DNA from: Tateyamaria omphalii
GTDB taxonomy: Bacteria; Pseudomonadota; Alphaproteobacteria; Rhodobacterales; Rhodobacteraceae
DNA: 64,000 bases
Assembly: GCF_014651375.1 (NCBI RefSeq)
Contig: NZ_BMWT01000004.1
Coordinates: forward strand, 186,001 to 250,000
Direction of reading: 5' to 3'
Below are positions 970 through 18,971 of the stretch, one piece after another; the first letter of the stretch is position 1; each line of letters begins with the position of its first letter. Made by a program: the position numbers and the translations under genes. The notes under the pieces were generated by a model, which searched no databases, had not been told where the DNA came from, and saw nothing but the letters and a program-made list of their open reading frames with translations.

Positions 970-1042
970 TCTGGTCGTCCTCCCATTCGTGTTCAAATCC
1001 AACATGCTGATTGACCAGTTCATGCCCGCTTTCACATTTGTC

Positions 1043-1052
1043 AAAGCGCTTT
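1043..1052. promoter_or_regulatory. Putative LacI-family operator, proximal to aglE
   Basis: Perfect 10-base palindrome AAAGCGCTTT, 74 bases upstream of the aglE start, with the core continuing as AAAGCGCTTTGGA. The same 13 bases recur at 1191-1203. LacI-family operators commonly have a central CG flanked by A/T-rich half-sites, as here. Confidence 0.7.
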
Positions 1053-1190
1053 GGATGTCGTGAACGTTGCCGAATTTTCACGTTCTGTCAAACGCTGTCG
1101 GACCGTCGATGCAAAATAGTTTAACACGCTAGACGGGAGTAACGAGATGTTTTGACGTTAGCGCAACCAGCCGTTAGCGTCGCTATATCT

Positions 1191-1200
1191 AAAGCGCTTT
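1191..1200. promoter_or_regulatory. Putative LacI-family operator, proximal to the regulator gene
   Basis: Second perfect AAAGCGCTTT palindrome, sharing the 13-base AAAGCGCTTTGGA with 1043-1055. It ends 15 bases before the GTG start of the LacI gene, so occupancy would block that gene's own transcription or initiation. Centre-to-centre distance to the first copy is 148 bases, close to 14 helical turns, which would allow a repression loop. Confidence 0.7.
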
Positions 1201-1215
1201 GGAACGAATCCACCT

Positions 1216-2253
1216 GTGAATCTTAAGGAACTGTCATCTTTGCTGGGGCTCAGCCAGACCACGGTCAGTCGGGCGCTGAATGGCTATCCCGAGGTGTCCG
1301 AAAAAACCCGTGCCCGCGTGGTTCAGGCAGCAGAAGCGCATGCCTACAGCCCAAATACGCGGGCCCAGGGCCTCGCCACCGGCCATTCCAAGTGCATCGG
1401 CCACGTGATTTCCGTGAGTGATTCGGCAGAAATGGTGAACCCGATTTTCGGGGATTTCATGGCAGGGGCAGGGGAGACCTATTCGGCGCACGGCTATGAC
1501 ATGATGGTCACGCGTGTTGGCGCGCAGGACGAGGCAGACACCTATCGGAGCCTCAAGGCGCGCGGCGCAGTGGATGGCATTGTGGTACATGCCCCCCGCC
1601 GCAACGATCCGCGGTTGGAACTGCTCGACAAGATCGGCCTGCCTTATGTCGTGCATGGCCGCTCCACCGGGATCAAAGCGCCCTATTCCTGGCTCGACGT
1701 GAACAACACCCGCGCCTTTTCCGAAGCCACCTCCTATCTCGCCAGCCTTGGCCACAGCCGCATCGCGCTGATCAACGGGCAGGAAACGATGGATTTCGCC
1801 ATCCGACGCCGCTCGGGCTACGAATCCTCTCTGCGCTTCGCAGGTCTTTCCATTGACACTGCGCTGATGAGCACAGGCGAAATGACAGAAGCCTATGGGT
1901 ACACGCAAGCCAACGCGATGCTCGACCTTCTCCATCCGCCTACTGCCTTCCTAGCCGCCTCGATCATCTGTGCCGCCGGAATCCGCCGCGCGTTGGATGA
2001 ACGCGGTCTGCGGGTGGGGCAGGACGTGTCCATCGCCACGTTTGACGACTGCCTCAGCTATTTCGGCAATGGCGGCGACACGCCCGTCTTCACCGCATGG
2101 CAATCTTCCGTGCGCGCCGCGGGGGCGGCGCTGGCGCAAATGCTCATCGACCGCATCCGTGCCCCGCACGCCCCGCATATAACCAAGCTCTGGGAGGCCG
2201 AGTTCGTCTCGGGCGCCTCGACCGGCCCGGCACCGGGCACATCCAAGGACTGA
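1216..2253 (+). CDS. aglR: LacI-family transcriptional regulator (AglR-like)
   Basis: 345-residue sugar-responsive repressor. The N-terminus has the LacI helix-turn-helix and hinge (residues about 1-55: NLKELSSLLGLSQTTVSRAL, then an SPNTRAQGLA hinge). The remainder is a periplasmic-binding-protein-like effector domain. The start is GTG at 1216, which places the helix-turn-helix at the very N-terminus as usual; there is no clear Shine-Dalgarno site, so translation may be leaderless or weak. It is divergent from aglE and two bases upstream of the GH1 gene, with which it probably forms an operon. Two identical palindromes in the intergenic region are its likely operators, which would repress the transporter and autoregulate. 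The inducer is presumably the imported glucoside or glucose. Confidence 0.88.
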   Translation: MNLKELSSLLGLSQTTVSRALNGYPEVSEKTRARVVQAAEAHAYSPNTRAQGLATGHSKCIGHVISVSDSAEMVNPIFGDFMAGAGETYSAHGYDMMVTRVGAQDEADTYRSLKARGAVDGIVVHAPRRNDPRLELLDKIGLPYVVHGRSTGIKAPYSWLDVNNTRAFSEATSYLASLGHSRIALINGQETMDFAIRRRSGYESSLRFAGLSIDTALMSTGEMTEAYGYTQANAMLDLLHPPTAFLAASIICAAGIRRALDERGLRVGQDVSIATFDDCLSYFGNGGDTPVFTAWQSSVRAAGAALAQMLIDRIRAPHAPHITKLWEAEFVSGASTGPAPGTSKD

Positions 2254-2255
2254 TC

Positions 2256-3581
2256 ATGTTCACGCACAAACGCTCCGACTTTCCCGAAGGGTTCCTCTTC
2301 GGGGCCGCAACCTCTGCCTACCAGATCGAAGGACACCAACACGGTGGCGCGGGCCGCGCCATGTGGGATGATTTCGCCGCCACCCCCGGCAACGTGGTCC
2401 GCGCCGAAGACGGCGCACGCGCCTGCGACCACTACAATCGGTATGAGGCCGATCTTGATCTCTTGCGCGACGGCGGCTTTGACGCCTACCGCTTCTCGAC
2501 AAGCTGGGCGCGGGTCATGCCCGACGGGCGGACGGTGAACCCCGAAGGGCTCGATTTCTACGACCGGCTGGTCGACGCGATGCTGGAACGCAACCTCAAA
2601 CCCTGCGCCACGCTCTACCACTGGGAACTGCCCTCAGCTCTCGCTGACTTGGGCGGCTGGCGCAACCGCGACATCGCAAGCTGGTTCGGGGATTTCACTG
2701 AAGCCGTGATGGCCCGCATCGGCGACCGCACTTACTCTGTCGCCACGATCAACGAATTCTGGTGCGTCTCCTTCCTGTCCCATTTCCTCGGCCATCACGC
2801 GCCGGGCCTGCGCGACATCCGCGCCACCGCCCGCGCCATGCACCACGTGCTGCTAGCCCACGGCACGTCCATCGAACGGATGCGCGGCATGGGTGTCGGC
2901 AACCTCGGCGCTGTCTTCAACATGGAGTGGGCCACGCCCGCCGATGACAGCCCCGAAGCTGCCAAAGCCGCAGCGCTCTACGACGATTACTACAACCACT
3001 TCTTCGTTTCGGGCGCATTCAAGGGCACCTATCCCGACCGCCTTGTCCGCGACCTCGGCCCGTACTTCCCGTACGGCTGGCAAGACGACATGGCGACGAT
3101 CAAGGCCCCGCTCGACTGGGCCGGGATCAACTACTACACGCGCTCGATCATCGCCCCCAACGATGGCCCATGGCCCCACCACCACGGCGTCGAAGGCCCC
3201 CTCGAAAAAACGCAAATGGGGTGGGAGGTTTACCCACAGGGTCTGCACGACTTCCTCGTGCGCACAGTAGCCGAATACACCGGCGATCTGCCGCTTTTCG
3301 TGACAGAAAACGGCATGGCCAACGCCGACAAAATCACCAATGGCACCGTGCAAGACGATGCCCGCATCGCCTATTTCCAATGCCACCTGCAGGCGGTCCG
3401 CGACGCCATTGCCAAGGGCGTCCCGGTACAGGGCTACATGGCGTGGTCGCTCATGGACAATTACGAATGGGCGCTCGGCTATGAAAAGCGGTTCGGCATG
3501 GTGCACGTCGATTTCGACACGCTTGAACGCACGCCCAAGGCGTCATGGCATGCGTTTAAGGACATGCTGACCGCTAGCTGA
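2256..3581 (+). CDS. GH1 family beta-glucosidase
   Basis: 441-residue glycoside hydrolase family 1 enzyme, which hydrolyses beta-glucosides by a retaining mechanism; it has no signal peptide, so it is probably cytoplasmic. The N-terminus has the GH1 signature FPEGFLFGAATSAYQIEG (residues 9-26). The acid/base glutamate is in TINEFW (E167; the family more often has NEP), and the nucleophile is in LFVTENG (E351). A C-terminal MAWSLMDNYEWALGY segment is the usual aglycone/glycone-binding strand. I chose ATG 2256, directly after the LacI stop, because the longer open frame upstream is just overlap with lacI. It presumably acts on the sugar brought in by the AglE system. The last 8 bases overlap the end of the convergent SDR gene. 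Confidence 0.93.
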   Translation: MFTHKRSDFPEGFLFGAATSAYQIEGHQHGGAGRAMWDDFAATPGNVVRAEDGARACDHYNRYEADLDLLRDGGFDAYRFSTSWARVMPDGRTVNPEGLDFYDRLVDAMLERNLKPCATLYHWELPSALADLGGWRNRDIASWFGDFTEAVMARIGDRTYSVATINEFWCVSFLSHFLGHHAPGLRDIRATARAMHHVLLAHGTSIERMRGMGVGNLGAVFNMEWATPADDSPEAAKAAALYDDYYNHFFVSGAFKGTYPDRLVRDLGPYFPYGWQDDMATIKAPLDWAGINYYTRSIIAPNDGPWPHHHGVEGPLEKTQMGWEVYPQGLHDFLVRTVAEYTGDLPLFVTENGMANADKITNGTVQDDARIAYFQCHLQAVRDAIAKGVPVQGYMAWSLMDNYEWALGYEKRFGMVHVDFDTLERTPKASWHAFKDMLTAS

Positions 3582-4431
3582 GAAAGGTCTCCACCACTTG
3601 GCTTTGTAGCTTCTTCCCATCCGGGTCGAGGTCGGTCTTCAACGCACAAAACGCCTCTCCCCATTTTGACGTGCGCGTCCGAATTGGCGGGGCGTCAGAC
3701 GCGACGCAGCCCATCACAACGGCGGCCACCTCGTCTGCTGTCTGATAAATGTCACCACCGGCTGCACGGTCCTGTGCGCCACCGACATATTTCTGCAAGA
3801 TCGGCAGATACTCGTCATCCAGCATCCCGCCGGTCTCTTCCACCTGTTTCATCACATTGGCGGCGAATTCCGACGCAATCCCGCCGGGCTCCACCACCGT
3901 GAAGTTGATCCCAAAGTTAGGCGAAATGTACGAGGCCATCGCCTCCATATACCCCTCGACCGCGAACTTGGCGGCGCAGTAAATCTCGTTGAATGGCTGG
4001 CCTACAAGCCCACCGACCGACGATATGGTGATTACATGCCCGGCGCGGCGTTCACGGAAATGGGCAATCAGCGCCTTGGTGCAGCGCACGACGCCCATGA
4101 AGTTCACGTCCATCACCCAGTTGATGTCATCCTCGCTCGCCTGCTCGGTCGAGCGGACAAATCCGGCACCGGCATTGTTGATCAACACGTCCACATGCCC
4201 CTCGGCGGCAATGACCTGATCCACACAAGCAGCAATCGATCCGGCATCCTGCACATCCAGTTGCGCAACGTGCAATGTCACCCCTGCCGCCTCGACGGCT
4301 TCATCCAGTACCGCCCGTTTCGACAGGTTGCGCATGGTGGCATAGACCGTGTGGCCCGCCTGTGCGGCCTGAACGGCCAATGACACCCCAAGGCCCGAAG
4401 AACACCCGGTGATCAGAACAACTTTGGACAT
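3574..4431 (-). CDS. Short-chain dehydrogenase/reductase (SDR)
   Basis: 285-residue classical SDR, a cytoplasmic NAD(P)-dependent oxidoreductase. The nucleotide-binding motif TGCSSGLG is at about residues 8-15, an NNAG motif follows the beta-4 strand, and the catalytic Ser-Tyr-Lys set appears as ITISSVGG and IYCAAK. I chose the ATG at 4431 because AAAGGAG lies just upstream and the Rossmann strand begins right after it; an in-frame start 18 codons upstream has no such support. It is the last gene of a leftward unit GntR - Gfo/Idh/MocA - SDR, 88 bases after the preceding gene. In that context it may oxidise or reduce a sugar-derived intermediate. The sequence looks like the broad steroid/retinol-type SDR group, so the substrate cannot be told. 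Confidence 0.85.
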   Translation of the reverse strand: MSKVVLITGCSSGLGVSLAVQAAQAGHTVYATMRNLSKRAVLDEAVEAAGVTLHVAQLDVQDAGSIAACVDQVIAAEGHVDVLINNAGAGFVRSTEQASEDDINWVMDVNFMGVVRCTKALIAHFRERRAGHVITISSVGGLVGQPFNEIYCAAKFAVEGYMEAMASYISPNFGINFTVVEPGGIASEFAANVMKQVEETGGMLDDEYLPILQKYVGGAQDRAAGGDIYQTADEVAAVVMGCVASDAPPIRTRTSKWGEAFCALKTDLDPDGKKLQSQVVETFLS

Positions 4432-4519
4432 CGGGACGGCTCCTTTTGCTGACTGCGATACAACCAGCAATGGGCCTGCCGCCAAGGATAGTCAAACCCG
4501 CCGGATGGCGAAGGATCGC

Positions 4520-5620
4520 TTACATCCAACGCCGTGGATCAACAGCCTGCCCAGTCCGTGCGCTTTCCTGCGCGGCCATGCCCATCGCAACAGCCGCCCA
4601 GCCATCGGCCAATGTGACTTCCGGCGTACCCTGACCCCGCACAACGGCGGCGAATTTCTGGTGCTGGTAAAAGGTCGATCCATTGTGATCGCCCGCGTCC
4701 AGCAGGGTCGGATCAACGGGGATGTCATGCGTCACCGGCCCCTGTGGCTGACGTGGTGATGTCACCAGCTTGGCAATCGGGGCCGGGCCCAGATGCTCCG
4801 GCCAGAACCGGCCCGGACCGGGAACAAAGGCTTCGATCTTGCCCGTGGGCCCAACGGCGGACAGCTCCTCTTGATAGGCTGAGCCTTCTGCAAACATGCA
4901 CAATTCCAGCATGGCCCGCGTGCCGTTGTCGAAATCGACAATCGCGTAGCCGCTGTCGATGATGTCCGGCACCTCGCCGCCATAATCTTCGTCTAGGTGG
5001 TTCACGGCCTGCGTGGCTGACGCCATCACGCGCACCGGCTCTGCCCCCATGGTCAGGCGCATCAGGTCAAAGAAGTGGCAGCACTTCTCGACAAAGGTGC
5101 CGCCCGTATAGCGGTTGAACCGGTTCCAGTCGCCGACCTTTTCAAGGAAGGGAAAGCGATGCTCGCGCACCGAAAGCTGCTTGATGCCACCTGTCGCATC
5201 ACCTGCCTTGTCCAGGAATTCGGCAATCACCGGCATATAGCGATATTCCATCGCCACCCAGATCGGGCAGGGATAGCTGTCGCGGAACGCGGCCAGCTTT
5301 GCGGCGTCCTCGGTGTCGGTAAACAGCGGTTTCTCGACCAACAGGGGCAGGGGGCGTGTGGCCGCGATCTCTTCCATCTGCGCCACGTGGCAGAAATTGG
5401 GGCTGACGATCAGCAGGCAATCCAGCTCCTCAACGGCCAGCAATTCCTGCACCGAACCAACGGACTTGGCCTCGGGCGTGATGGCCAAGGCCCGCGCCGC
5501 CATGCTTGCATCCGGCTCAAAGAATGCAACGACCTGCGCATCGGGCAGCAGCGCGATATTGCGCATGTGTTCCTGCCCCATCATCCCGCATCCGATGATG
5601 CCATAGCGTACCTGATCCAA
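4520..5620 (-). CDS. Gfo/Idh/MocA family protein (dehydrogenase, or possibly GH188-type NAD-dependent sulfoquinovosidase)
   Basis: 366-residue NAD(P)-binding protein. The N-terminal Rossmann motif is YGIIGCGMMGQEH, and the LLVEKPL motif carries the lysine conserved in the Gfo/Idh/MocA family. A later segment, GGTFVEKCCHFFDL, is at the substrate-domain position where these proteins carry their catalytic residues. I chose TTG at 5620: AAGGAA lies about 6 bases upstream and the Rossmann fold starts a few residues later; the next upstream in-frame start lies inside the GntR gene. It follows the GntR gene by 11 bases. Most family members are sugar or inositol dehydrogenases. The family fold also includes GH109 and GH188 glycosidases, which use bound NAD; GH188 comprises sulfoquinovosidases found in sulfo-SMO clusters. 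The adjacent SMO-like operon makes that worth testing. Confidence 0.8.
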   Translation of the reverse strand: MDQVRYGIIGCGMMGQEHMRNIALLPDAQVVAFFEPDASMAARALAITPEAKSVGSVQELLAVEELDCLLIVSPNFCHVAQMEEIAATRPLPLLVEKPLFTDTEDAAKLAAFRDSYPCPIWVAMEYRYMPVIAEFLDKAGDATGGIKQLSVREHRFPFLEKVGDWNRFNRYTGGTFVEKCCHFFDLMRLTMGAEPVRVMASATQAVNHLDEDYGGEVPDIIDSGYAIVDFDNGTRAMLELCMFAEGSAYQEELSAVGPTGKIEAFVPGPGRFWPEHLGPAPIAKLVTSPRQPQGPVTHDIPVDPTLLDAGDHNGSTFYQHQKFAAVVRGQGTPEVTLADGWAAVAMGMAAQESARTGQAVDPRRWM

Positions 5621-5631
5621 CCTGCGTTCCT

Positions 5632-6342
5632 TCACTTCATGCGTTGCACATAAACGGCCCGCGCGGGGTCGTACCATGTGCGTGAAAATTCAATGGGTGC
5701 CGCTGCGTCCGCCCAGCTCAGGCGTTCGACATATCCAACGGTGTCGCCAGGACGCGGGCCATAGGTATCGGGCGCCCAGTGCGGCACCGTGCCAAGCGAC
5801 ACCCGGTCCTCGGCCCGCTGGATCCACAGACCCAGCTCCTTGCGATAGGTGGCATAGAGAGATTCGGACATCGTCGCTTCCGACACGATTCCCGCATCCG
5901 CATCCAGCCAAATCTCTTCCACGGCGATGATTGTGTCATTCAGGGATCGCAGCCGCCGAATGCGCGTGCCCCGTGCGGCAGTCCCGAAATCGGGCAGGTC
6001 GGCGGGCTTGTCCATCTGGTCGACCGACAGAACACGCGCCCGTGGCAGCCCGCCCCCCTCCAGCAGTTCCAGCCGGAACATGGCATAGACTGTGCCCGTG
6101 TCTCCACTGGCCCGGATATAGTTGCCAGACCCCTGAACGCTCTCGATCAACCCCTTTTGGCCCATGTCCCGAAGGGCCTTGCGCAACGTGCCGACACTCA
6201 CACCCAGCTCTGCTGCCATATCCCGTTCGGGCGGTAAACGCTCACCATCAATCAACCGGCCGGAAATGATATCGCGGGTCAAAAGCTCGGCAATCTGCAC
6301 GTAGATGGGCAGCGACTGAGGGGATTGTTTTTGCGTCGTCAC
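5632..6342 (-). CDS. GntR family (HutC/UTRA) transcriptional regulator
   Basis: 236-residue repressor. The N-terminal winged helix (LPIYVQIAELLTRDIISGRL through GERLPPERDMAAELGVS and GTLRKAL, then a VQGSGNYI wing) is classic GntR. The C-terminal half is a UTRA ligand domain (segments RIRRLR, VEEIWLDAD, YVERLSWADAA). HutC-type regulators respond to small metabolites, often sugar phosphates or amino acid derivatives. It heads the leftward GntR - Gfo/Idh/MocA - SDR unit and diverges from the monooxygenase/TRAP operon, so it probably controls both. Two inverted repeats in the 101-base intergenic region are candidate operators. Confidence 0.88.
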   Translation of the reverse strand: MTTQKQSPQSLPIYVQIAELLTRDIISGRLIDGERLPPERDMAAELGVSVGTLRKALRDMGQKGLIESVQGSGNYIRASGDTGTVYAMFRLELLEGGGLPRARVLSVDQMDKPADLPDFGTAARGTRIRRLRSLNDTIIAVEEIWLDADAGIVSEATMSESLYATYRKELGLWIQRAEDRVSLGTVPHWAPDTYGPRPGDTVGYVERLSWADAAAPIEFSRTWYDPARAVYVQRMK

Positions 6343-6361
6343 GTGGGCTTATGAGCTGTGG

Positions 6362-6410
6362 TGCGTAAAATTGATACACCATTGATCTACATCAATGACA
6401 ATGTTACGCA
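6362..6410. promoter_or_regulatory. Divergent promoter region with two inverted repeats (putative GntR operator)
   Basis: Between the GntR gene and the monooxygenase gene. The outer repeat is TGCGTAA (6362-6368) and TTACGCA (6404-6410). Inside is CATTGAT (6380-6386), CTAC, ATCAATG (6391-6397). Both are perfect. Their centres differ by 2.5 bases, so they are probably two separate protein sites or one compound site, not a single hairpin. The start of the rightward operon is 34 bases away. Confidence 0.6.
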
Positions 6411-6443
6411 AGTGCCAAGTTGACCTGAACGGAAAGTGCGCTG

Positions 6444-7598
6444 ATGACCATCGTCCCAATCACATCTCCTGACCTTGATGCGGCCGAAGTGTCGTGGTTC
6501 TCGGCGTTGTGCTCGGATGATTACCAGTTTCTCGGGGTGCCCGATGGCGGCCTCCGCTCAAGCTGGGCGCATTGCTCTGACATCGTACGCGAAGCCGAAG
6601 CACAAGGCTTCCGCAACATCCTCTGCCCGTCCTCCTATCAGGTGGGGCAGGACACGCTGTCCTTCGTTGCGGGCTGCGCACCGATCACGTCCAAGATCAA
6701 CCTGCTTGCGGCGGTCCGCTGCGGTGAAGTGCAGCCCATCATGCTCGCCCGCACCATCGCCACGCTCGATCACATGCTCGAAGGTCGGCTGACGGTAAAC
6801 ATCATCTCGTCCGACTTCCCCGGCGAAAAGGCGGACAGCGAATACCGCTACCAACGCTCGCGCGAAGTCGTAGAAATCCTGAAGCAGGCCTGGACACGGG
6901 ATGAAATCAGCTACGAGGGCGAGGTTTATAATTTCCAGGGCCTCACCACCGACCCCGTGCGCCCTTACCAGACCGGCGGCCCGCTTCTGTACTTCGGGGG
7001 TTACTCCCCTTCCGCGCTCGAACTCTGCGGCCAGCACTGCGACGTCTACCTGATGTGGCCCGAGCCCAAGGAAAACATCGCCCAGCGGATGCGCGACGTG
7101 AATGCAGTGGCCGAGAAATACAACCGGACGCTCGACTACGGCCTGCGCGTGCACATGATCGTGCGGGATACCGAGGCCGAGGCCCGCGAATACGCCGATT
7201 ACATCGTGTCCAAGCTCGATGACGAATACGGCCAACTGATCCGCGACCGGGCGCTGGACAGCACCTCGCTCGGCGTGGCCCACCAGGCCAAGGCGCGCGA
7301 ACTGGCGGACAAATTCGGATATGTCGAACCCAACCTCTGGACCGGCGTGGGCCGGGCACGGTCGGGCTGTGGCGCGGCACTGGTCGGGTCTACCGATCAG
7401 GTCATGTCGAAAATCGAAGACTATCAAAAGATGGGTATCCGGGCCTTTATCTTCTCTGGCTACCCACACCTGGAAGAAGCAAAACATTTTGGCGCGCGCG
7501 TGATGCCGCACTTGAAAACCTGCTCATTGCCCCATGCTTATGGTCGGGTGCCATCTGCCGCACCCGCAACACCCCTTGCCGCAGGAGAGCGCCGCTAA
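6444..7598 (+). CDS. LLM-class FMNH2-dependent monooxygenase, SsuD-like; candidate sulfoquinovose monooxygenase (SmoC-type)
   Basis: 384-residue bacterial luciferase-like protein of the alkanesulfonate monooxygenase (SsuD) subgroup, which uses FMNH2 and oxygen to cleave a C-S bond, releasing sulfite and an aldehyde. Family features seen: a CPSSYQVGQDTLSFVAG segment, a LTVNIISSDFPGE flavin-binding stretch (SsuD proteins have similar NxVxGGxP-type strands), LLYFGGYSP, and a C-terminal GTDQ-like VGSTDQV with FIFSGYPHLEEA. Its stop overlaps the start of the aldo/keto reductase (TAATGG). A flavin reductase follows, giving a complete two-component system. With the reductase this matches SmoC/SmoB/SmoA of the Agrobacterium sulfo-SMO pathway, where SmoC converts sulfoquinovose to 6-oxoglucose plus sulfite. 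The enzyme class is firm; the sulfoquinovose substrate is inferred from context. Confidence 0.88.
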   Translation: MTIVPITSPDLDAAEVSWFSALCSDDYQFLGVPDGGLRSSWAHCSDIVREAEAQGFRNILCPSSYQVGQDTLSFVAGCAPITSKINLLAAVRCGEVQPIMLARTIATLDHMLEGRLTVNIISSDFPGEKADSEYRYQRSREVVEILKQAWTRDEISYEGEVYNFQGLTTDPVRPYQTGGPLLYFGGYSPSALELCGQHCDVYLMWPEPKENIAQRMRDVNAVAEKYNRTLDYGLRVHMIVRDTEAEAREYADYIVSKLDDEYGQLIRDRALDSTSLGVAHQAKARELADKFGYVEPNLWTGVGRARSGCGAALVGSTDQVMSKIEDYQKMGIRAFIFSGYPHLEEAKHFGARVMPHLKTCSLPHAYGRVPSAAPATPLAAGERR

Positions 7599-8488
7599 TG
7601 GACCGCGTCCAACTATCCGATACCCTGAACTTCTCGCGCATCGTCTATGGCATGTGGCGGCTGGCCGATGACAGTGACACATCGGTGGGCCATGTGCAGG
7701 CCAAGATCCACGCCTGCCTTGATCAGGGGATCACCACATTCGATCAGGCCGACATCTACGGTGGCTACGTGGCCGAGGCTGTGTTGGGCGGAGCACTCAA
7801 GGCCGACACGGGCCTGCGCAGCAAGATGGAGATCGTGACCAAATGCGACATCGTGGCGCCCGTGGGCCGCTATGCCGATGCGCCGGTCAAATACTACGAC
7901 ACCAGCAGCGCCCACATCATGCAGAGCATCGAAAACTCGCTGCGGGACATGGCCGTTGATCATATCGACCTGCTGTTGATCCACCGCCCCGACCCGTTCA
8001 TGGATCACCATGAAACAGGTGCGGCACTGGACGAGGCTGTCGCAAGCGGCAAGGTGCGCAGCGTGGGTGTTTCGAACTTCCGTCCGTGGGACTGGAAGCT
8101 GCTGCAATCGGGTATGAAAACGCAACTGGTGACCAACCAGATCGAAATCTCGCTCAGCGAAATCAACCCGTTCACCAATGGCGATCTCGCGTTCCACCAG
8201 CAACACGGCCAACCGCTGATGGCATGGTCGCCGCTTGGTGGCGGCGGTCTGATGACAGGCAGTGAGAAGCTGCACAACGTCATGGATGAGATTGCCAGCG
8301 CCCAAGGTGTAGACCGCGCCGCAGTCGCAACTGCGTTTCTCTTGGCACACCCCGCAAATATCATTCCGGTGATGGGTACAAATAACATCGACCGGATCAA
8401 AAAGATCGGCGATGCTGCAAAGGTGTCGCTCGACCGGCCCACATGGTTCCGCCTTTATGAGGCGGCACTGGGACACGAGGTGGCCTGA
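7598..8488 (+). CDS. Aldo/keto reductase, YdhF-like; candidate 6-oxoglucose reductase (SmoB-type)
   Basis: 296-residue (beta/alpha)8 NADPH-dependent oxidoreductase. The catalytic Asp-Tyr is in DQADIYGGY, lysine in IVTKCDIV, and histidine in LLLIHRPDPFMD; the C-terminal half has the VSNFRPW and TNQIEISL strands and a MAWSPLGGGG motif. It resembles E. coli YdhF in these segments. Start and stop both overlap the neighbours (TAATG with the monooxygenase, TGATG with the flavin reductase), so the three genes are translationally coupled. In the sulfo-SMO pathway an aldo/keto reductase of this kind reduces the 6-oxoglucose made by the monooxygenase to glucose. That role is inferred from the operon. 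Confidence 0.86.
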   Translation: MDRVQLSDTLNFSRIVYGMWRLADDSDTSVGHVQAKIHACLDQGITTFDQADIYGGYVAEAVLGGALKADTGLRSKMEIVTKCDIVAPVGRYADAPVKYYDTSSAHIMQSIENSLRDMAVDHIDLLLIHRPDPFMDHHETGAALDEAVASGKVRSVGVSNFRPWDWKLLQSGMKTQLVTNQIEISLSEINPFTNGDLAFHQQHGQPLMAWSPLGGGGLMTGSEKLHNVMDEIASAQGVDRAAVATAFLLAHPANIIPVMGTNNIDRIKKIGDAAKVSLDRPTWFRLYEAALGHEVA

Positions 8489-8997
8489 TGACAATGCAAA
8501 CGCTGAGCCAACCTACCGTGTTTTCACCTGACGCCAATTCCAGCCGCCAACTGCGCGACGCCTTCGGCAAGTTCGCCACCGGCGTCACGATGATCACGGC
8601 CCCCAGCGTGGATGGACCAGTTGCCATCATCGCCAACAGCTTTTCATCCGTATCGCTCGACCCGGCACTGGTGCTTTGGTCCGTTGACAGGGGGGCACGG
8701 CGCTTCCCCTATTTCGAGGCAGCGGACCACTATGCGATCCATGTGCTGGCGGCTGAACAGCATGACGTCTGCAAGCTGGCGGCGCGCGACGCCCACTTGC
8801 TGAACGACCATGCCCACACGCTGAACGCGGATGGCGTTCCCCTGATTGATCATTGCCTTGCGCGGTTTGAATGTCGCAGGGTGGCAGCACATGACGCGGG
8901 CGACCACGTCATCATCGTGGGCCAGGTCCAGCGTACAGAGATGCGCGACGGCCAGCCGCTCACGTTCTTTGCCGGCCAGTTCGGCAGCGTCGACTAA
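8488..8997 (+). CDS. Flavin reductase (DIM6/NTAB family); candidate SmoA-type partner
   Basis: 169-residue flavin reductase domain protein. The FGKFATGVTMIT and VAIIANSFSSVSLDPALV segments near the N-terminus are the FMN-binding signature of this family, and the C-terminus has DHVIIVGQV. It would supply FMNH2 from NAD(P)H to the SsuD-like monooxygenase two genes upstream. Its start overlaps the aldo/keto reductase stop (TGATG). The operon then continues into a TRAP transporter after 87 bases. Confidence 0.88.
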   Translation: MTMQTLSQPTVFSPDANSSRQLRDAFGKFATGVTMITAPSVDGPVAIIANSFSSVSLDPALVLWSVDRGARRFPYFEAADHYAIHVLAAEQHDVCKLAARDAHLLNDHAHTLNADGVPLIDHCLARFECRRVAAHDAGDHVIIVGQVQRTEMRDGQPLTFFAGQFGSVD

Positions 8998-9084
8998 CGA
9001 CGCCAAGACCCGCCCGCGGGGTTAAAGCGGAAAATGGGCCACGGTGGATTAACTACCGGGCGACCGACAAAGGGAGGGCCCTTC

Positions 9085-9669
9085 ATGGGTCTATTACTGA
9101 CGGTGCTTGCACCGATCAGCTGGGTGAATGGCCTGCTGCTCAAGATTGGGCGCGCCATAGGCATCGTGGCCATCGCCGCCATGGTGATTGCGATTCTGGT
9201 TCAGGTCGTGGCCCGCTACCTCTTCAACAACGCATTGCCCTGGCCGGATGAGGCCGCGCGCTTCTGTATGCTCTGGATGACGGGTTTGATGGCACCCACC
9301 GCCTTCCGGCGCGGGGGGTTCGTGGCACTCGACATGATTTCGGGCATCCTGCCTCGGGCCGTTGCTGCAATCCTTGGGCTTGTGTTGCTCCTGATCTCCA
9401 TCGCGATCCTGCTGGTGGCCCTGCCCATCGGCTATGCAGAGGTCACGGGCTTCGGCGGCAAGTTCGCCACCGCGTCGCTATACCTGCCGACCTTTGATGG
9501 TTGGTTCCGCGTGCCGCGCAGCTGGATGATGCTGTCCCTGCTGGTGGGTGTCGTGCTGCTGATCCTTGTGAACATCGAACTGATCTTGCGCAAACTGGTT
9601 GAGCTTATGGGCGGCGGTGATCGCCTGCCAGACCTCGACCTTGGCGACATGGCAGCGGGGAACGAATGA
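9085..9669 (+). CDS. TRAP transporter small permease (DctQ)
   Basis: 194-residue inner-membrane protein with about four hydrophobic segments and the DctQ signature around ARYLFNNALPWPDEAARFCMLW, followed by a GGFVALD stretch. It bridges the binding protein and the large permease of a TRAP (Na+-driven) uptake system. I chose the ATG at 9085, which follows AGGGAGG at 9071-9077; an earlier in-frame ATG at 9034 adds a hydrophilic, unlikely leader. It sits between the flavin reductase and DctM genes and is likely cotranscribed with the desulfonation enzymes. Confidence 0.9.
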   Translation: MGLLLTVLAPISWVNGLLLKIGRAIGIVAIAAMVIAILVQVVARYLFNNALPWPDEAARFCMLWMTGLMAPTAFRRGGFVALDMISGILPRAVAAILGLVLLLISIAILLVALPIGYAEVTGFGGKFATASLYLPTFDGWFRVPRSWMMLSLLVGVVLLILVNIELILRKLVELMGGGDRLPDLDLGDMAAGNE

Positions 9670-9670
9670 T

Positions 9671-11143
9671 ATGCTGATCTGGTTCCTTCCGCTCTTCCTG
9701 CTGTTCCTGATGATCGGCCTGCCGGTCTTTTTCGGCCTGCTCGCGGCGCCGGGTATCCTGCTGTACCTAAACGGGCAGGAGCGCGACATCACGCTGCTCT
9801 ACCGCAATGTCTACAACGGCATGGACAGCTTCCCGCTGATGGCGATCCCCTTCTTCATGCTGGCGGGCGAGTTGATGAACAAGGGCGGGATCACGATCCG
9901 CCTTGTCCAGTTCAGCCAAGCACTCATGGGCCACCTGCGCGGCGGCCTTGCCCAAGTGAACGTGCTGTCCTCGATCCTCTTTGCGGGCCTCTCCGGCTCC
10001 GCCGTGGCCGACACCTCTGCGCTGGGCTCCATGCTGGTCCCCGCGATGGAGAAGGAGGGCTACACAAGACGCTATGCAGCCGCCATCACGGCGGCCTCAT
10101 CCGTCATCGGCCCGATCATCCCGCCGTCTGGCATCATGATCATCTACGCCTATGTCATGGGCGAAAGCGTGGCGGCCCTCTTCCTCGCGGGCATTGTGCC
10201 GGGCATCCTTGTCGGCGTCGGCCTCATGGTGATGATCCGCGTCACGGCAGATCGCTATGACCTGCCTGCTGCGCATAAGGTGCAGTTCGACGGCGTGGAA
10301 CTCAGCCCCATTGAGCGTTGGGTCTCGTGGGCGCTCGTGCGCCTGAACATCGGCCTTTTGCTCTGGGCCTTCCTGCCCTTGGGCGAAACGTCCCCTCTGA
10401 TCCTCTGGGGCACATTCGCTGGGGCCGTGCTGGTTGCGCACGCCCTTATGCTAGCCCTGCGCACGCAGGTCAGCAGCGAATTCCGCACCATCTGCAAACG
10501 CGCCATCGTACCCCTGCAAACACCGGTCCTAATCTTGGGTGGCATCCTCGGCGGCGTCTTCACCCCGACCGAGGCCGCAGCGGTGGCCGTGGCCTACGCC
10601 GTCTTCGTCGCCTTCTTCGTCCTGCGCACCATGTCGCTTAAGGACCTGCCTGACATCCTCAGCCGTGCAGGCCTCACCTCGGCGGTGGTGCTACTTCTCG
10701 TCGGCGCAGCACTGGCGTTCAAAACAGTGGTGTCGCTCAGCTACGCACCGCAAATCCTTGCGGACTTCATACTGACCCTGTCGGAAAACCCGCTGGTGCT
10801 GTTGTTTCTGATCAACCTTCTGCTGTTCATCGTCGGCATGTTCCTCGATGCAGGCCCCGCAATCATCATCCTTGGTCCCATCCTCGGCCCGATCTTCATC
10901 GACCTCGGTGTCGATCCAATCCACTTCGCGATCATCATGTCGGTGAACCTGACAGTGGGGCTGGCAACGCCGCCCATGGGGCTTGTGCTGTTCGTGGCCG
11001 CTGCCGTCAGCCGCGAGAAGGTCGAAACGATTGCCAAGGCAATCCTGCCCTTCCTCGCCATCGAAATCGCAGTGATCTTCCTGATCACCTACGTGCCCGC
11101 CATATCCATGACCATTCCCCGCCTTACGGGGTTTGCAAACTAA
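9671..11143 (+). CDS. TRAP transporter large permease (DctM)
   Basis: 490-residue polytopic membrane protein, the ion-coupled channel subunit of a TRAP transporter. DctM features: FFMLAGELMNKGG, the LFAGLSGSAVADTSALG segment, GPIIPPSGIMIIYA, GGVFTPTEAAAVAVAYA and the C-terminal NLTVGLATPPMG. The ATG at 9671 is one base after the DctQ stop. Length is typical for a DctM with no fused DctQ domain. With DctQ and DctP it forms a complete importer; TRAP systems of this layout are established for several organosulfonates (for example isethionate, taurine and dihydroxypropanesulfonate importers), which fits the neighbouring desulfonation genes. Confidence 0.93.
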   Translation: MLIWFLPLFLLFLMIGLPVFFGLLAAPGILLYLNGQERDITLLYRNVYNGMDSFPLMAIPFFMLAGELMNKGGITIRLVQFSQALMGHLRGGLAQVNVLSSILFAGLSGSAVADTSALGSMLVPAMEKEGYTRRYAAAITAASSVIGPIIPPSGIMIIYAYVMGESVAALFLAGIVPGILVGVGLMVMIRVTADRYDLPAAHKVQFDGVELSPIERWVSWALVRLNIGLLLWAFLPLGETSPLILWGTFAGAVLVAHALMLALRTQVSSEFRTICKRAIVPLQTPVLILGGILGGVFTPTEAAAVAVAYAVFVAFFVLRTMSLKDLPDILSRAGLTSAVVLLLVGAALAFKTVVSLSYAPQILADFILTLSENPLVLLFLINLLLFIVGMFLDAGPAIIILGPILGPIFIDLGVDPIHFAIIMSVNLTVGLATPPMGLVLFVAAAVSREKVETIAKAILPFLAIEIAVIFLITYVPAISMTIPRLTGFAN

Positions 11144-11172
11144 TTCAGAGCTTAACGGGAGGACCTAACCAC

Positions 11173-12231
11173 ATGCTCAAAACGACCCTTAAAACCCTGA
11201 CCGCTGCCGCGCTTGTCGCTGGCTCGGCGATTATGGCGCAAGCGCAGGACTACACGATCCGCGCCACCGCCAACTCGAACACCAATGACGAAGACTATGA
11301 CGGCCTCGTCGTGTTCAAGAACTATGTCGAAGCAGCCTCCAACGGCGCCATTGCTGTGGAACTGTTCATCGGCACACAGCTCTGCTCGAACGGTGCGGAA
11401 TGCTTGCAAGGCGTGGCTGACGGCACGATCGATGTCTACATCTCTACCTCCGGCGGCGCCTCGGGCATCTTCCCCTACGTGCAGGTACTCGATCTGCCCT
11501 ACCTGATGGCCGATGACCGCATTGCCGAACACGTGTTGCAGGGTGACTTCGTTCGGACCATGCGTGATATGGCGCTCGAAGACTCCGGAGGCGCGATCCG
11601 TCTGATGACCATCGGCAACACCGGCGGCTGGCGCAACTTCGCGAACACGCAACGCCGTGTGGCCGAGCCATCGGACATGGAAGGTCTGAAAATCCGCACC
11701 GTGGTCGCCGACCTGCCGCAGGAGCTGGTCAAGGCTCTGGGCGCGTCCCCAACCCCGATTCCGTGGCCCGAGCTCTTCACCTCGTTCCAGACGGGCGTTG
11801 TGGAAGGCTCCAAAAACGGCATCACCGACATCATGGGCATGAAATTCCCCGATGCGGGCCTGCAATACGTCACGCTCGACGGCCACGCCTATATGGGCGC
11901 ACTGTGGTGGATGTCGAACGAGAAGTTCCTCGCCATGCCCGAAGACATGCGCCGTGTCGTGGTGGACGGCTTCTATGCGCTGCAACAGGCGACATTCGCA
12001 TCGCCCAAACGCAAGTCGATCCAGGCCTACGAAGACTTCGTCGCCGGTGGCGGTGATCTTTACGTGCCCACGCCGGACCAAAAAGCGGCCTTCGCAGCGG
12101 CTGCGGCTCCTGTGAACGACTGGTTTACGGCCAACGTCGCACGTGGTGGTGAAATCCTGACGGCACTGCAAGACGCGGTTGCAGCGGCTGAGGCCGATGT
12201 GAACGCTGCGCGCGCAGCCGATCTGAACTGA
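11173..12231 (+). CDS. TRAP transporter substrate-binding protein (DctP)
   Basis: 352-residue periplasmic receptor. A Sec signal peptide (MLKTTLKTLTAAALVAGSAI, cleaved near AQAQ) is followed by a DctP fold. GLKIRTV carries the arginine that in characterised DctP proteins salt-bridges the ligand's acidic group, and it is followed by the LGASPTPIPWPELFTSFQTGVVEG helix region. GGGAGG precedes the ATG. As the last gene of the rightward operon it would set substrate specificity, probably for an anionic sugar or sulfonate. A GC-rich hairpin follows the gene. Confidence 0.92.
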   Translation: MLKTTLKTLTAAALVAGSAIMAQAQDYTIRATANSNTNDEDYDGLVVFKNYVEAASNGAIAVELFIGTQLCSNGAECLQGVADGTIDVYISTSGGASGIFPYVQVLDLPYLMADDRIAEHVLQGDFVRTMRDMALEDSGGAIRLMTIGNTGGWRNFANTQRRVAEPSDMEGLKIRTVVADLPQELVKALGASPTPIPWPELFTSFQTGVVEGSKNGITDIMGMKFPDAGLQYVTLDGHAYMGALWWMSNEKFLAMPEDMRRVVVDGFYALQQATFASPKRKSIQAYEDFVAGGGDLYVPTPDQKAAFAAAAAPVNDWFTANVARGGEILTALQDAVAAAEADVNAARAADLN

Positions 12232-12253
12232 GGCGGATCAAAAACCGCTTAAA

Positions 12254-12278
12254 GGGGCCGCTCCGATCCGGGGCGGCC
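12254..12278 (+). terminator. GC-rich hairpin after the TRAP operon
   Basis: GGGCCGCTCCG (12254-12264), a 3-base ATC loop, then CGGGGCGGCCC (12268-12278): an 11-bp stem with one G-U pair. There is no T-run after it, so it may be a weak terminator, an RNA-stabilising end or an attenuator before the next gene. Confidence 0.5.
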
Positions 12279-12301
12279 CAACCCAATTCAAGGGGTGTGC
12301 C

Positions 12302-13036
12302 ATGAAGGCTCTTCTCGGTTCGGTGGCAACGTGCTTGGCGCTCACCGCGTGCGGCACAGTTGATTTCGACGCGGCGCCTGTGGGCCGCTTCGAAGGCAGC
12401 GCCCTTGTTGTCTGGGTGGGGCCGGGCGATGACAGTGCGCTTGGTGACGGCGAATTCGTCTATGTCCCACGACCGGGTCAAGAGCTGACATTCTACCGTG
12501 GTGATGGTGCCGAGGTGTCGGAAGGCAACGCTGTCATTCAACCCGGCGCATTTTATACAGATGGTGGGTCTGTTCCGCGCGCGGTGCACTGGATTCAGGG
12601 GTTCAATGCCTGGGCATTTGGTCCGGCCTACATCGTGCATGACTGGCTGTTTGTCGTGCGCAAGTGCATCAACGCGAAAGATCCCTGGGGACTGGAAAGC
12701 CCAATCACCAATATGGACTTCCAGGAGAGCGCCGACATCATGGCGGAAACGATCAAAACCGTGACCGAACAGTATCAGATTGATGCGACTACGGGTGATG
12801 CCGGTCGCGTCATTGCGCCGACCACCGCAGGTCCGGTCAGTTACGGGCTGTGGAACGATACGGATTGCGCCAATCCAGAAGAGGATACCCGTATTCAGAA
12901 GGTTCTTGCCGACATCAATGGCAAGGAGGCGCGCGGGGCCGCACTGCCACGGATTTCGGACCCGGGCATCGAGGCAATCATCGAACGCGCGCCACTGCCC
13001 TACGTGGTTGTCGCAGAAATCGGGTTTCCCCCTTGA
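12302..13036 (+). CDS. DUF1353-type lipoprotein
   Basis: 244-residue predicted lipoprotein. The signal sequence MKALLGSVATCLALTAC ends in an LTAC lipobox, so the protein should be lipid-anchored in the envelope. The central segment YTDGGSVPRAVHW followed by AYIVHDWLF is the DUF1353 signature (phage-linked and bacterial proteins of unknown role). AAGGGG sits just before the ATG. It is same-strand and 70 bases after the TRAP operon, but no functional link is evident. The function is unknown; the conserved Asp, His and Asp residues might suggest a hydrolytic or metal site, but that is speculative. Confidence 0.75.
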   Translation: MKALLGSVATCLALTACGTVDFDAAPVGRFEGSALVVWVGPGDDSALGDGEFVYVPRPGQELTFYRGDGAEVSEGNAVIQPGAFYTDGGSVPRAVHWIQGFNAWAFGPAYIVHDWLFVVRKCINAKDPWGLESPITNMDFQESADIMAETIKTVTEQYQIDATTGDAGRVIAPTTAGPVSYGLWNDTDCANPEEDTRIQKVLADINGKEARGAALPRISDPGIEAIIERAPLPYVVVAEIGFPP

Positions 13037-13059
13037 ATGGTTGCGGCGGCATGGCAGAC

Positions 13060-13551
13060 TTACCGAAACGGATACATCCAGACCTTGTAGTCAGCGACCA
13101 GAATATGCGCCCGATCAATCTCGTCTTGGGTCATTTTCTTGACCACTTCTTCCAGCGAAATAGCCGCATCCGGATCGCCGCCAATGGCCGACAGGGTGTA
13201 CCACATGTAAGCGCGCACAAGGTCCGGCGCGGGCATGCCCCGCCCAACCTCATAGTACCAGCCGACACCGGATTGCGCGCCCGGGTGGCCTTTCATCGAG
13301 CTGCGCAAATACCACTCAAACGCCCGCTCGTCATCGCGCTCGACCCCGAGACCCAAGGCGTACATGACACCGATCAGTTCTTCGGCATCCGCATTTCCCG
13401 ACCGCGCGGCCGGCCACAGCGCGTTATAGGCCGCCTTGTATTCGCCGGCCTCCATCAGATCGCGCGCTTCCTCGATCTCGGCCGCCGCCGGAACGGCAGT
13501 CAGGCCAAATGGAAAGGCCGCAAATACAAGGACTATCGCAAGTTTGCGCAT
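13060..13551 (-). CDS. Secreted Sel1-repeat protein
   Basis: 163-residue periplasmic or exported protein. Signal peptide MRKLAIVLVFAAFPFGLTAV with cleavage near AAAEIEE. Two Sel1-like repeats follow (a GNADAEELIGVMYALGLGV repeat and one with YEVGRGMPAPDLVRAYMWY). Sel1 repeats are TPR-like scaffolds for protein contacts. I chose the ATG at 13551, which has AGGAG upstream and starts the signal peptide. Its start abuts the likely start of the divergent peroxidase gene, so the two 5' ends share almost no spacer. Confidence 0.8.
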   Translation of the reverse strand: MRKLAIVLVFAAFPFGLTAVPAAAEIEEARDLMEAGEYKAAYNALWPAARSGNADAEELIGVMYALGLGVERDDERAFEWYLRSSMKGHPGAQSGVGWYYEVGRGMPAPDLVRAYMWYTLSAIGGDPDAAISLEEVVKKMTQDEIDRAHILVADYKVWMYPFR

Positions 13552-14862
13552 GTGCTTCTCCTGTGCGGTGCACCCGCCTTTGCTGACGATGTCCCGCGTG
13601 CTTTGACTCCCGATGATTTCATCGCGGTCGACCCGGCGCAAGCCAAACTCGGCCAGCTTCTATTCTATGATCGCATCCTGTCGGGCAACCGCAACATTGC
13701 CTGCTCCACGTGCCACCATCCCGACCTCGGTACCGGCGACGGCCTCAGCCTTGGCATTGGCGAAGGGGGCGAAGGTTTGGGACCAGACAGAACGGCTGGC
13801 ACGGGTGATGACCGTATCCGTAAGCGCATTCCACGCAATGCACCGGGCCTTTGGAACCTGGGGGCCAAGGATCTGCACACCATCTTCCATGACGGGCGCC
13901 TGAGCATTGCGGACACATACGAGAACGGCTTCAATTCCCCAGCCGAGGAATGGTTGCCGGAAGGCTTGGACAATCTACTGGCTGCACAGGCTATTTTCCC
14001 TTTGGTGGCCCAGTTCGAAATGGCCGGGAATCCAAAGGAAAACGAGGTTGCTGGAGCCATCCATCAGCGTATGGACTATGCATGGCCGATCCTTGCAGAC
14101 CGTGTGCGCCATATCCCGGCCTATGCCGACCGCTTCGTGGCTGCATATGACCATATCGATGGGGCCAAGGATATCACGATCGCGGATGTCGCGAACGCAC
14201 TCAGTGCGTTCATGATCTGGGAATGGACAAGCACGGACAGCCCCTTTGATGCATATCTGCAGGGTGACACCAACGCTCTGAATGCGCGGCAAAAACAGGG
14301 GCTCGCGTTGTTCTATGGCAAGGCCGGATGCGGCACGTGCCACAGTGGTCCGCTCATGACTGATCAGGCTTTTCATGCCCTTGGACTGCCGCCTTTCGGC
14401 CCCGGTCGTACGCGTCGCTTTGATCCAATGGTAAGGGATGTCGGGCGTATGGGAGAGAGTGACGCGCTGGAAGATGCTTACGCTTTCAAAACACCGATGC
14501 TCAGAAACGTGGCACTGACCGCACCTTATGGGCACAACGGTGCGTACCCGACCCTTGAAGGCATTGTGCGCCACCACTTGACCCCGCTGCAATCGCTCGA
14601 CGCTTGGGCTCCAGAAAAAGCTGCACTACCAGAGGTCCCTTGGCTGGCGGCCATTGATTTCATGGTCTGGCAGGACAGCCGCGAAATGGCCCGCCAGCGG
14701 GCAGCGATCCAGATCGCATCCAACCCGCTGTCGGATACCGAAATCGATCAAATTATCGCGTTCCTGCATGCGCTCAGCGGCGAAACCGCCAATGTTGACA
14801 AACTTGGAGTGCCAGACACGGTCCCCAGTGGTTTGCCTGTCGACCCGCGGATAACGCCCTAG
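13552..14862 (+). CDS. Di-haem cytochrome c peroxidase / MauG family protein (start uncertain)
   Basis: About 436 residues. Two c-type haem sites are visible, CSTCH (residues 51-55) and CGTCH (260-264), with the FYDRILSGN and LRNVALTAPYGHNG segments typical of periplasmic di-haem peroxidases and MauG-like enzymes, which reduce peroxide or oxidise protein side chains. The 5' end is odd: the only nearby start in frame is GTG at 13552, leaving an 11-residue leader (VLLLCGAPAFA), too short for a normal signal peptide, and no ribosome site is evident. Basic residues upstream in the same frame look like a lost n-region but have no start codon. So the start, or the base sequence there, is doubtful. 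The stop overlaps that of the convergent hydratase (CTAG). Confidence 0.8.
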   Translation: MLLLCGAPAFADDVPRALTPDDFIAVDPAQAKLGQLLFYDRILSGNRNIACSTCHHPDLGTGDGLSLGIGEGGEGLGPDRTAGTGDDRIRKRIPRNAPGLWNLGAKDLHTIFHDGRLSIADTYENGFNSPAEEWLPEGLDNLLAAQAIFPLVAQFEMAGNPKENEVAGAIHQRMDYAWPILADRVRHIPAYADRFVAAYDHIDGAKDITIADVANALSAFMIWEWTSTDSPFDAYLQGDTNALNARQKQGLALFYGKAGCGTCHSGPLMTDQAFHALGLPPFGPGRTRRFDPMVRDVGRMGESDALEDAYAFKTPMLRNVALTAPYGHNGAYPTLEGIVRHHLTPLQSLDAWAPEKAALPEVPWLAAIDFMVWQDSREMARQRAAIQIASNPLSDTEIDQIIAFLHALSGETANVDKLGVPDTVPSGLPVDPRITP

Positions 14863-15638: not shown

Positions 15639-15641
15639 GTC

Positions 15642-17732: not shown

Positions 17733-17733
17733 T

Positions 17734-18894: not shown

Positions 18895-18971
18895 CGGTGT
18901 GTTCCCTGCCATTGATGGCGGGATCAGAGCGTGGCTTGCGAAAGTATAGCGTGCAGTGTTAGCCGTCTGTC

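Follow-up and report, generated by a model that had tools for sequence, protein, structure and literature searches.

A predicted sulfoquinovose monooxygenase locus of Tateyamaria omphalii with a TRAP importer that also occurs beside a second putative sulfosugar module

The window analysed here, a 64,000-nucleotide stretch of the Tateyamaria omphalii genome (NZ_BMWT01000004.1), lies within a contig of 501 kb in an assembly of 4.75 Mb and carries a predicted locus for the use of the sulfosugar sulfoquinovose through the sulfoquinovose monooxygenase (sulfo-SMO) pathway. As shown in Table 1, genes for a monooxygenase (SmoC), an aldo/keto reductase (SmoB) and a flavin reductase are followed in one operon by the complete DctQ, DctM and DctP set of a tripartite ATP-independent periplasmic (TRAP) transporter, and genes for a GntR regulator and a Gfo/Idh/MocA protein (SqgA) diverge from them. 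All the genes named in an earlier, sequence-only reading were recovered as open reading frames (ORFs) with matching Pfam families (NCBIfam for DctM), and the translational coupling that it described was confirmed, smoC and smoB overlapping by one base of stop and start codon at 7598 (TAATG, 7596–7600) and smoB and the flavin reductase gene at 8488 (TGATG, 8486–8490). The observation was thus confirmed and its sulfo-SMO interpretation supported, and we are firm in calling this a real sulfo-SMO locus with a glycoside hydrolase family 188 (GH188) enzyme and a TRAP system. As a finding, the locus represents a known system in a common variant form; the importer shared with other modules and a pair of Sel1-repeat and di-haem genes beside it are most worth following.

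Table 1. Predicted features of the locus, in window coordinates
Feature	Position	Strand	Basis
SmoC, FMN-dependent sulfoquinovose monooxygenase	6444..7598	+	PF00296 (Bac_luciferase); 7olf/7oh2 match
SmoB, aldo/keto reductase (6-oxoglucose to glucose)	7598..8488	+	7bby/7bbz match
SmoA-like flavin reductase, reduced FMN supply	8488..8997	+	PF01613
DctQ, small TRAP permease	9085..9669	+	PF04290; ORF opens at 9034, likely start ATG 9085
DctM, large TRAP permease	9671..11143	+	TIGR00786, 401 bits (cut-off 268)
DctP, solute-binding TRAP component; sulfoquinovose or its glycerol glycoside as proposed ligand	11173..12231	+	PF03480
SqgA, GH188 NAD+-dependent sulfoquinovosidase (Gfo/Idh/MocA)	4520..5620	-	8zn9 match; likely start TTG 5620
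GntR/UTRA regulator, probable local repressor	5632..6342	-	PF00392 and PF07702
Short-chain dehydrogenase/reductase (SDR)	3574..4431	-	local neighbour
Candidate promoter-operator element	6370..6395	.	ATTGATACA at 6370–6378; TTGATCTACATCAA palindrome at 6382–6395
Sel1-repeat protein, signal-peptide-like start (by eye)	13060..13551	-	PF08238, 56 bits
Di-haem cytochrome c peroxidase/MauG-like protein	13552..14862	+	PF03150, 116 bits; start uncertain

At the level of sequence, SmoC and SmoB resemble solved enzymes of the SMO pathway far more than those of any other family, and the identities proposed for them were borne out. SmoC matched the PDB chains 7olf and 7oh2 over nearly its full length with 712 and 709 bits, respectively, against 187–200 bits for SsuD-type chains, while SmoB scored 411 bits against 7bby and 7bbz and 205 bits against the next chain. 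The PDB names of these entries are generic, and we take 7olf and 7oh2 to be SmoC-type enzymes and 7bby and 7bbz to be SmoB. When the comparison suggested as a check on the monooxygenase was run, the protein grouped with 7olf and 7oh2 and away from SsuD, and an assignment as an SsuD-like alkanesulfonate enzyme was rejected. The residues that we assume to line the SmoC pocket also occur in SsuD. In passages of PMC13372026 a SmoB-type aldo/keto reductase alongside SmoC serves as the criterion for sulfo-SMO, and this pairing is found here, with the one-base overlap of the two genes. The flavin reductase, whose best PDB match was 4xhy (126 bits), is called SmoA-like for its family and its coupled position after smoB.

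The divergent Gfo/Idh/MocA gene is predicted to encode a GH188 NAD+-dependent sulfoquinovosidase. Its product scored 537 bits against 8zn9 and 351 bits against 8qc2 and 8qc3, the latter two being GH188 sulfoquinovosidases according to passages of Kaur et al. (2023, PMC10755693). The same passages give the residues that serve sulfoquinovose contact and catalysis in GH188, and all nine (K107, Y136, E164, R166, L170, K172, E189, H193 and H321 in ArSqgA numbering, where E164 is the aligned residue by count and the paper prints Glu163) are present in the window protein. These catalytic and sulfonate-binding residues did not vary in an alignment of 98 proteins with good coverage and length, among them that of the window; SMO loci contributed 83 of the proteins, a second type of locus described below 13, and 2 came from elsewhere. 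Since the gene would encode a GH188 sulfoquinovosidase, the imported substrate probably includes sulfoquinovosyl glycerol. SqgA begins directly at its Rossmann fold with no signal peptide seen by eye, so glycosides would enter the cell whole. The sulfoquinovosidase of Agrobacterium belongs to family GH31, and a search for GH31 (PF01055) found none in the T. omphalii genome, while the identical search gave matches in 6 of 14 control genomes. This absence agrees with the Roseobacter sulfo-SMO clusters covered in passages of PMC10755693, in which GH188 is near-universal and with which the window shares SmoC and GH188.

The best explanation of the locus, which we regard as very probable, is a sulfolytic sulfo-SMO catabolic unit that joins TRAP uptake, SqgA, SmoC, SmoB and the use of glucose. 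The DctPQM system would bring in sulfoquinovosyl glycerol, free sulfoquinovose or both, and cytoplasmic SqgA, with its bound NAD+, would split the glycoside to release sulfoquinovose. The flavin reductase would provide FMNH2 for SmoC, which with O2 would break the C–S bond to give sulfite and 6-oxoglucose, and SmoB would reduce 6-oxoglucose to glucose for central metabolism. GntR would control the divergent promoters, probably in response to a pathway sugar. Gene order, coupling, family membership, conservation of the SqgA residues, the linkage statistics and the exchange both of importers and of catabolic modules are observed; each chemical step is drawn from the published enzymology of homologues, and the TRAP substrate and the role of GntR from linkage. 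The Agrobacterium tumefaciens sulfo-SMO (sulfo-ASMO) pathway has the same SmoC, SmoB and flavin reductase and the same proposed chemistry, but passages of PMC9594981 describe an ATP-binding cassette (ABC) transporter for sulfoquinovosyl glycerol, whereas the window has TRAP genes after the trio, and GH188.

We determined how common this layout is in a sample of one genome per genus of the family (n = 198), in which SmoC was present in 88 genomes at 72–100% identity, giving 88 loci (87 with up to 9 kb flanks, and the window). The gene set is recurrent and not a chance grouping, SmoB being found near SmoC in 83 loci, GntR in 85, SqgA in 81 and the flavin reductase in 74. The divergent unit of GntR, Gfo/Idh/MocA and SDR genes that had been proposed held for its first two members and not for the third: the only one of the 88 loci with an SDR of at least 60% identity was that of the window, and 3 of 80 loci of a named set had one. 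Because this named set was formed from the 80 closest among 497 confirmed loci, with Ruegeria and Tateyamaria predominating, it is biased, and rates were taken from the one-per-genus sample instead. The named relatives whose SmoC is closest to that of the window (92–97%) belong to Tateyamaria, family Roseobacteraceae. Glycoside hydrolase family 1 (GH1) and LacI genes were likewise rejected as unit members (1 and 2 of the 88 loci, respectively).

This TRAP system accompanied SmoC in 50 of the 88 family loci, a recognised ABC system without TRAP in 13, neither in 25 and both in none; when restricted to the 81 loci whose downstream sequence reaches 6 kb or more, the counts were 49, 12, 20 and 0. 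An ABC call needed a binding protein and a permease resembling a few queries within 9 kb, so ABC systems are possibly undercounted, and four loci (L040, L152, L166 and L179) have an ABC binding protein without a recognised permease. The named set gave TRAP in 63 loci (12 of them also with ABC), ABC only in 4 and neither in 13. The proposal that a TRAP importer stands in place of an ABC transporter thus held across the family, but as a frequent layout rather than a rare variant. A screen for multi-helix proteins over about 6 kb in the 20 importer-less family loci that have 6 kb or more of downstream sequence gave none in 13 and scattered ones in the rest. Three importer-less loci share an FtsX/MacB-type permease (one was scanned), an ABC protein that is not a sugar importer; in these TRAP-less loci (L060, L061 and L075) the permease, of about 800 residues, lies 3' of smoB with a gene of a cluster that has a CrtC/lipocalin-type representative. 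Beyond the family, five of the nine SmoC matches in a class sample of 385 genomes were in other families; TRAP follows in L227 and L230, and in L229 as far as its short contig reaches, while the L228 contig ends just past the SmoB start and L226, over the 4.7 kb that remain of its contig, shows no SmoB and no TRAP.

The argument for the importer comes from its linkage. DctP orthologues of 68–100% identity were present in 72 of the 198 family genomes, after which identity dropped to 50 and 37%, and DctP and SmoC occurred together in 54 genomes (odds ratio 8, p = 6e-11; the genomes are related, so this p-value, like those below, overstates their independence). Among 72,556 plasmids, SmoC was found at 77% identity or above in 11 records and at 48–55% in 12 more, and this DctP in 10. 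All 10 DctP records, which include Rhizobium sp. SL42, of another order, and Ruegeria sp. TM1040, carry SmoC, with dctP 2–4 kb from smoC. The eleventh SmoC plasmid, Marinovum pMaD9, has the same core and an ABC sugar system further downstream, and no DctP.

Eighteen of the 72 DctP genomes have no SmoC. In 13 of these, the same TRAP system lies with SqgA, a PfkB-type kinase and a sulfoquinovose isomerase-family protein, together with a LacD-type aldolase (12 loci), a DeoR regulator (11), a 2-hydroxyacid dehydrogenase (9), a mutarotase (7) and an aldehyde dehydrogenase (7). We read this TRAP-linked module as sulfo-Embden–Meyerhof–Parnas 2 (sulfo-EMP2)-like, a label that comes from domain families and against which it counts that the isomerase scored 251 bits to the sulfoquinovose isomerase model, whose cut-off is 700. 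According to passages of PMC12890257, sulfo-EMP2 proper is found in Firmicutes, while Proteobacteria and Actinobacteria have hybrid sets; the sister TRAP loci share with sulfo-EMP2 the isomerase family, the kinase, mostly the aldolase and in some cases the mutarotase and aldehyde dehydrogenase, whereas the window has none of the module. The remaining five DctP genomes without SmoC keep SmoB in two cases, SqgA in one and neither in two. In a phylogeny of 77 DctP proteins, the EMP2 label required 7 changes, at least 5 of them forced by well-supported branches, and modules have therefore been exchanged repeatedly beside the TRAP genes. Modules with a common sulfosugar also have a common importer. 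A single ligand, sulfoquinovose or its glycerol glycoside, is the simplest reading of the linkage for both settings. Taken together, genome linkage makes TRAP uptake of sulfoquinovose or sulfoquinovosyl glycerol a well-supported prediction, and we consider the importer call strong on this ground.

The 13 sulfo-EMP2-like loci (L202–L208, L210, L211, L213, L215, L217 and L219) have divergent SqgA proteins, about 43–53% identical to that of the window. Two other loci, L214 (genome G040) and L216 (G126), retain SmoB, the flavin reductase and TRAP, and SmoC was not found in them at E 1e-100.

Several further points weigh against a sulfo-SMO locus fed by TRAP. This DctP is missing from 34 of the 88 SmoC genomes, and the 25 family loci with neither importer within 9 kb have been noted above. 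TRAP and ABC genes near smoC are not strictly exclusive, since both occur in the 12 named loci already counted, all of them Tateyamaria (L122–L132 and L135), where the ABC genes belong to an upstream sugar operon with GH13 and LacI. The binding-protein gene (PF01547) of a sugar ABC operon is also present in the window itself, at its left edge beyond LacI and GH1; the window was scored as TRAP alone because its edge cuts this operon, and the zero count of loci with both importers is partly an effect of range, since the operon sits upstream. All 75 DctP orthologues have W153, R154, R175, W198 and H238, but two distant DctPs have these residues as well, and so they are no mark of the ligand; R280 and Y286, shared by the 75, are replaced in the two, and such residues are few among the rows compared. 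As most of the residues are thus shared, we rejected pocket invariance across the two settings as an argument. The codes 7olf, 7oh2, 7bby and 7bbz appear in no paper of the literature searched. Finally, the chemistry, ligand binding and growth role ascribed to the locus are predictions from its genes.

The sugar operon of ABC binding protein, LacI and GH1 beta-glucosidase occupies window positions 1–3581 and abuts the locus; in Tateyamaria relatives it also has GH13 and permease genes.

One alternative accepts true sulfo-SMO enzymes but has the TRAP system carry another compound, such as a sugar acid or a short sulfonate, with sulfoquinovose entering through another transporter such as the sugar ABC system at the left edge. 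The absence of DctP from over a third of SmoC genomes fits it, as do two TRAP-less Roseicyclus loci (L144 and L198) in which a sugar ABC operon of the type neighbouring our locus follows smoB, and the TRAP binding proteins of the PDB related to DctP are varied and none is close (best 4p47, 115 bits; the isethionate-binding DctP 8t9t, for a C2 sulfonate, belongs to the same family but reaches only 84.5 bits). TRAP nevertheless lies directly 3' of the SMO trio in most TRAP-bearing family loci, in 13 genomes the same DctP family accompanies SqgA beside another catabolic module, and dctP stays within 2–4 kb of smoC in all 10 plasmid records, all of which makes this alternative rather improbable. 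That the locus serves another 6-sulfosugar or its glycosides is very unlikely: a Paracoccus catabolises sulfofucose according to passages of PMC12421959, but by other enzymes and ABC transporters, and here SmoC is close to the SMO chains along its length and SqgA retains the residues that contact sulfoquinovose in GH188 structures. We give hardly any credence to an alkanesulfonate or methanesulfonate monooxygenase in a sulfur-scavenging cluster, since, although SsuD is homologous and depositors named 7olf and 7oh2 as methanesulfonate/alkanesulfonate enzymes, the protein scores far better against 7olf than against SsuD-type chains, lies far under the SsuD equivalog cut-off (248 against 518 bits, NCBIfam), is coupled to SmoB and lies near SqgA, neither of which is needed for alkanesulfonate use.

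The sulfo-SMO locus with TRAP uptake bears on a compound whose production is put at 10 billion tons a year in a passage of PMC10755693, and its use by a given bacterium depends in part on uptake. ABC systems are the sulfoquinovose importers named in passages of PMC12421959 and PMC9594981, the available text of PMC10755693 names no transporter for the Roseobacter sulfo-SMO clusters, and the available main texts of PMC13372026, PMC12890257 and PMC9594981 contain no word beginning with TRAP. No paper in the literature searched combined sulfoquinovose, monooxygenase and TRAP transporter, and no report of a sulfoquinovose TRAP importer was among the literature matches listed; because the layout is the commonest in the family, it may already be visible in figures or proteomes of Liu et al. 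(2023) or of Ma et al. (2025). If confirmed, TRAP would add an uptake route for many Roseobacter relatives and make DctP a marker of sulfosugar use across two pathways.

Downstream of dctP, the Sel1-repeat and di-haem genes lie head to head. The di-haem protein has two CxxCH motifs and scored 110 bits against 1eb7 and 57 against MauG in the PDB. It reaches the broader CCP_MauG domain and shares it and the two motifs with the MauG/MbnH enzymes, but is below the cut-offs of the three NCBIfam models matched, including the best, TIGR03981 (250 bits, cut-off 340), and the curated model of MauG, the enzyme of TTQ biosynthesis (136 bits, cut-off 444), and the neighbour of its gene encodes a Sel1-repeat protein. 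We counted the pair genome-wide and around DctP, since 9 kb around SmoC cuts it off. The Sel1 protein was found in 52 of the 198 family genomes, its weakest match (2e-65) standing well clear of the limit (1e-25); it was present in 52 of 72 genomes with DctP and 0 of 126 without it (p = 1e-31, uncorrected for kinship). The di-haem orthologue, counted to a limit of 1e-147 that was set after seeing the list and leaves out a widespread distant paralogue, occurred in the same 52 genomes and in 4 without this DctP, and the pair was head to head in 52 of 52. Its distance to dctP was at most 8 kb in 42 genomes and 13 to 634 kb in 4, and in 6 the pair was on another contig; co-occurrence despite separation argues against mere synteny, although contig breaks may explain some of the six. 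The di-haem gene was present in 37 of 54 genomes with DctP and SmoC and 15 of 18 with only DctP, but in 2 of 34 with only SmoC and 2 of 92 with neither, and the pair thus tracks TRAP and not SmoC.

An essential role is opposed by the 20 of 72 DctP genomes that lack the pair and by the lack of both genes past dctP in 23 of the 50 family SMO-TRAP loci where 3 kb or more follow it (the locus-level di-haem search used an in-frame query piece without the N-terminus). At least 95% of 37 aligned Sel1 proteins retain a C-terminal DYxxWxYPxR motif, which, speculatively and by analogy with MauG/MbnH systems, would suit an oxidised residue. It is conceivable, though we hold it doubtful, that one TRAP family acts as a pathway-independent importer of sulfoquinovose and sulfoquinovosyl glycerol, with sulfo-SMO or sulfo-EMP2-like modules swapped beside it, and that its use in most lineages involves a dedicated, probably exported pair of MauG-like di-haem protein and Sel1 protein, the C-terminal tryptophan of the latter being near-invariant. 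In that case, the di-haem enzyme may act by oxidising a residue, either in the Sel1 protein or in DctP, or may protect the binding protein. If so, the pair would be a new kind of TRAP importer accessory; it is in any case a concrete pair of genes open to deletion. Between dctP and the Sel1 gene lies a DUF1353-like ORF with a lipoprotein-like start (12302–13036), which tblastn found in none of the other 197 loci.

Some SMO loci have a putative sulfate exporter gene (PF03601) after TRAP (L249, 17079–18104; L248, 13926–14885), which would fit sulfite or sulfate disposal; a homologue is present in 7 of the 88 family SmoC loci and absent from the window. An Rfam search of window positions 1–20000 found nothing.

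The gntR–smoC intergenic region contains a conserved candidate promoter-operator element. Of 86 regions of this kind, 63 contain ATTGATACA, which has 2 copies in the remaining 1.49 Mb of the loci, and 31 contain a TTGAT-4-ATCAA palindrome, in the window TTGATCTACATCAA. A sigma-70 consensus scan gave no promoter at the element (1 promoter-like site against 1.9 in shuffles); by eye, a −35/−10-like pair overlaps it. From its linkage to SmoC, GntR is a probable local repressor.

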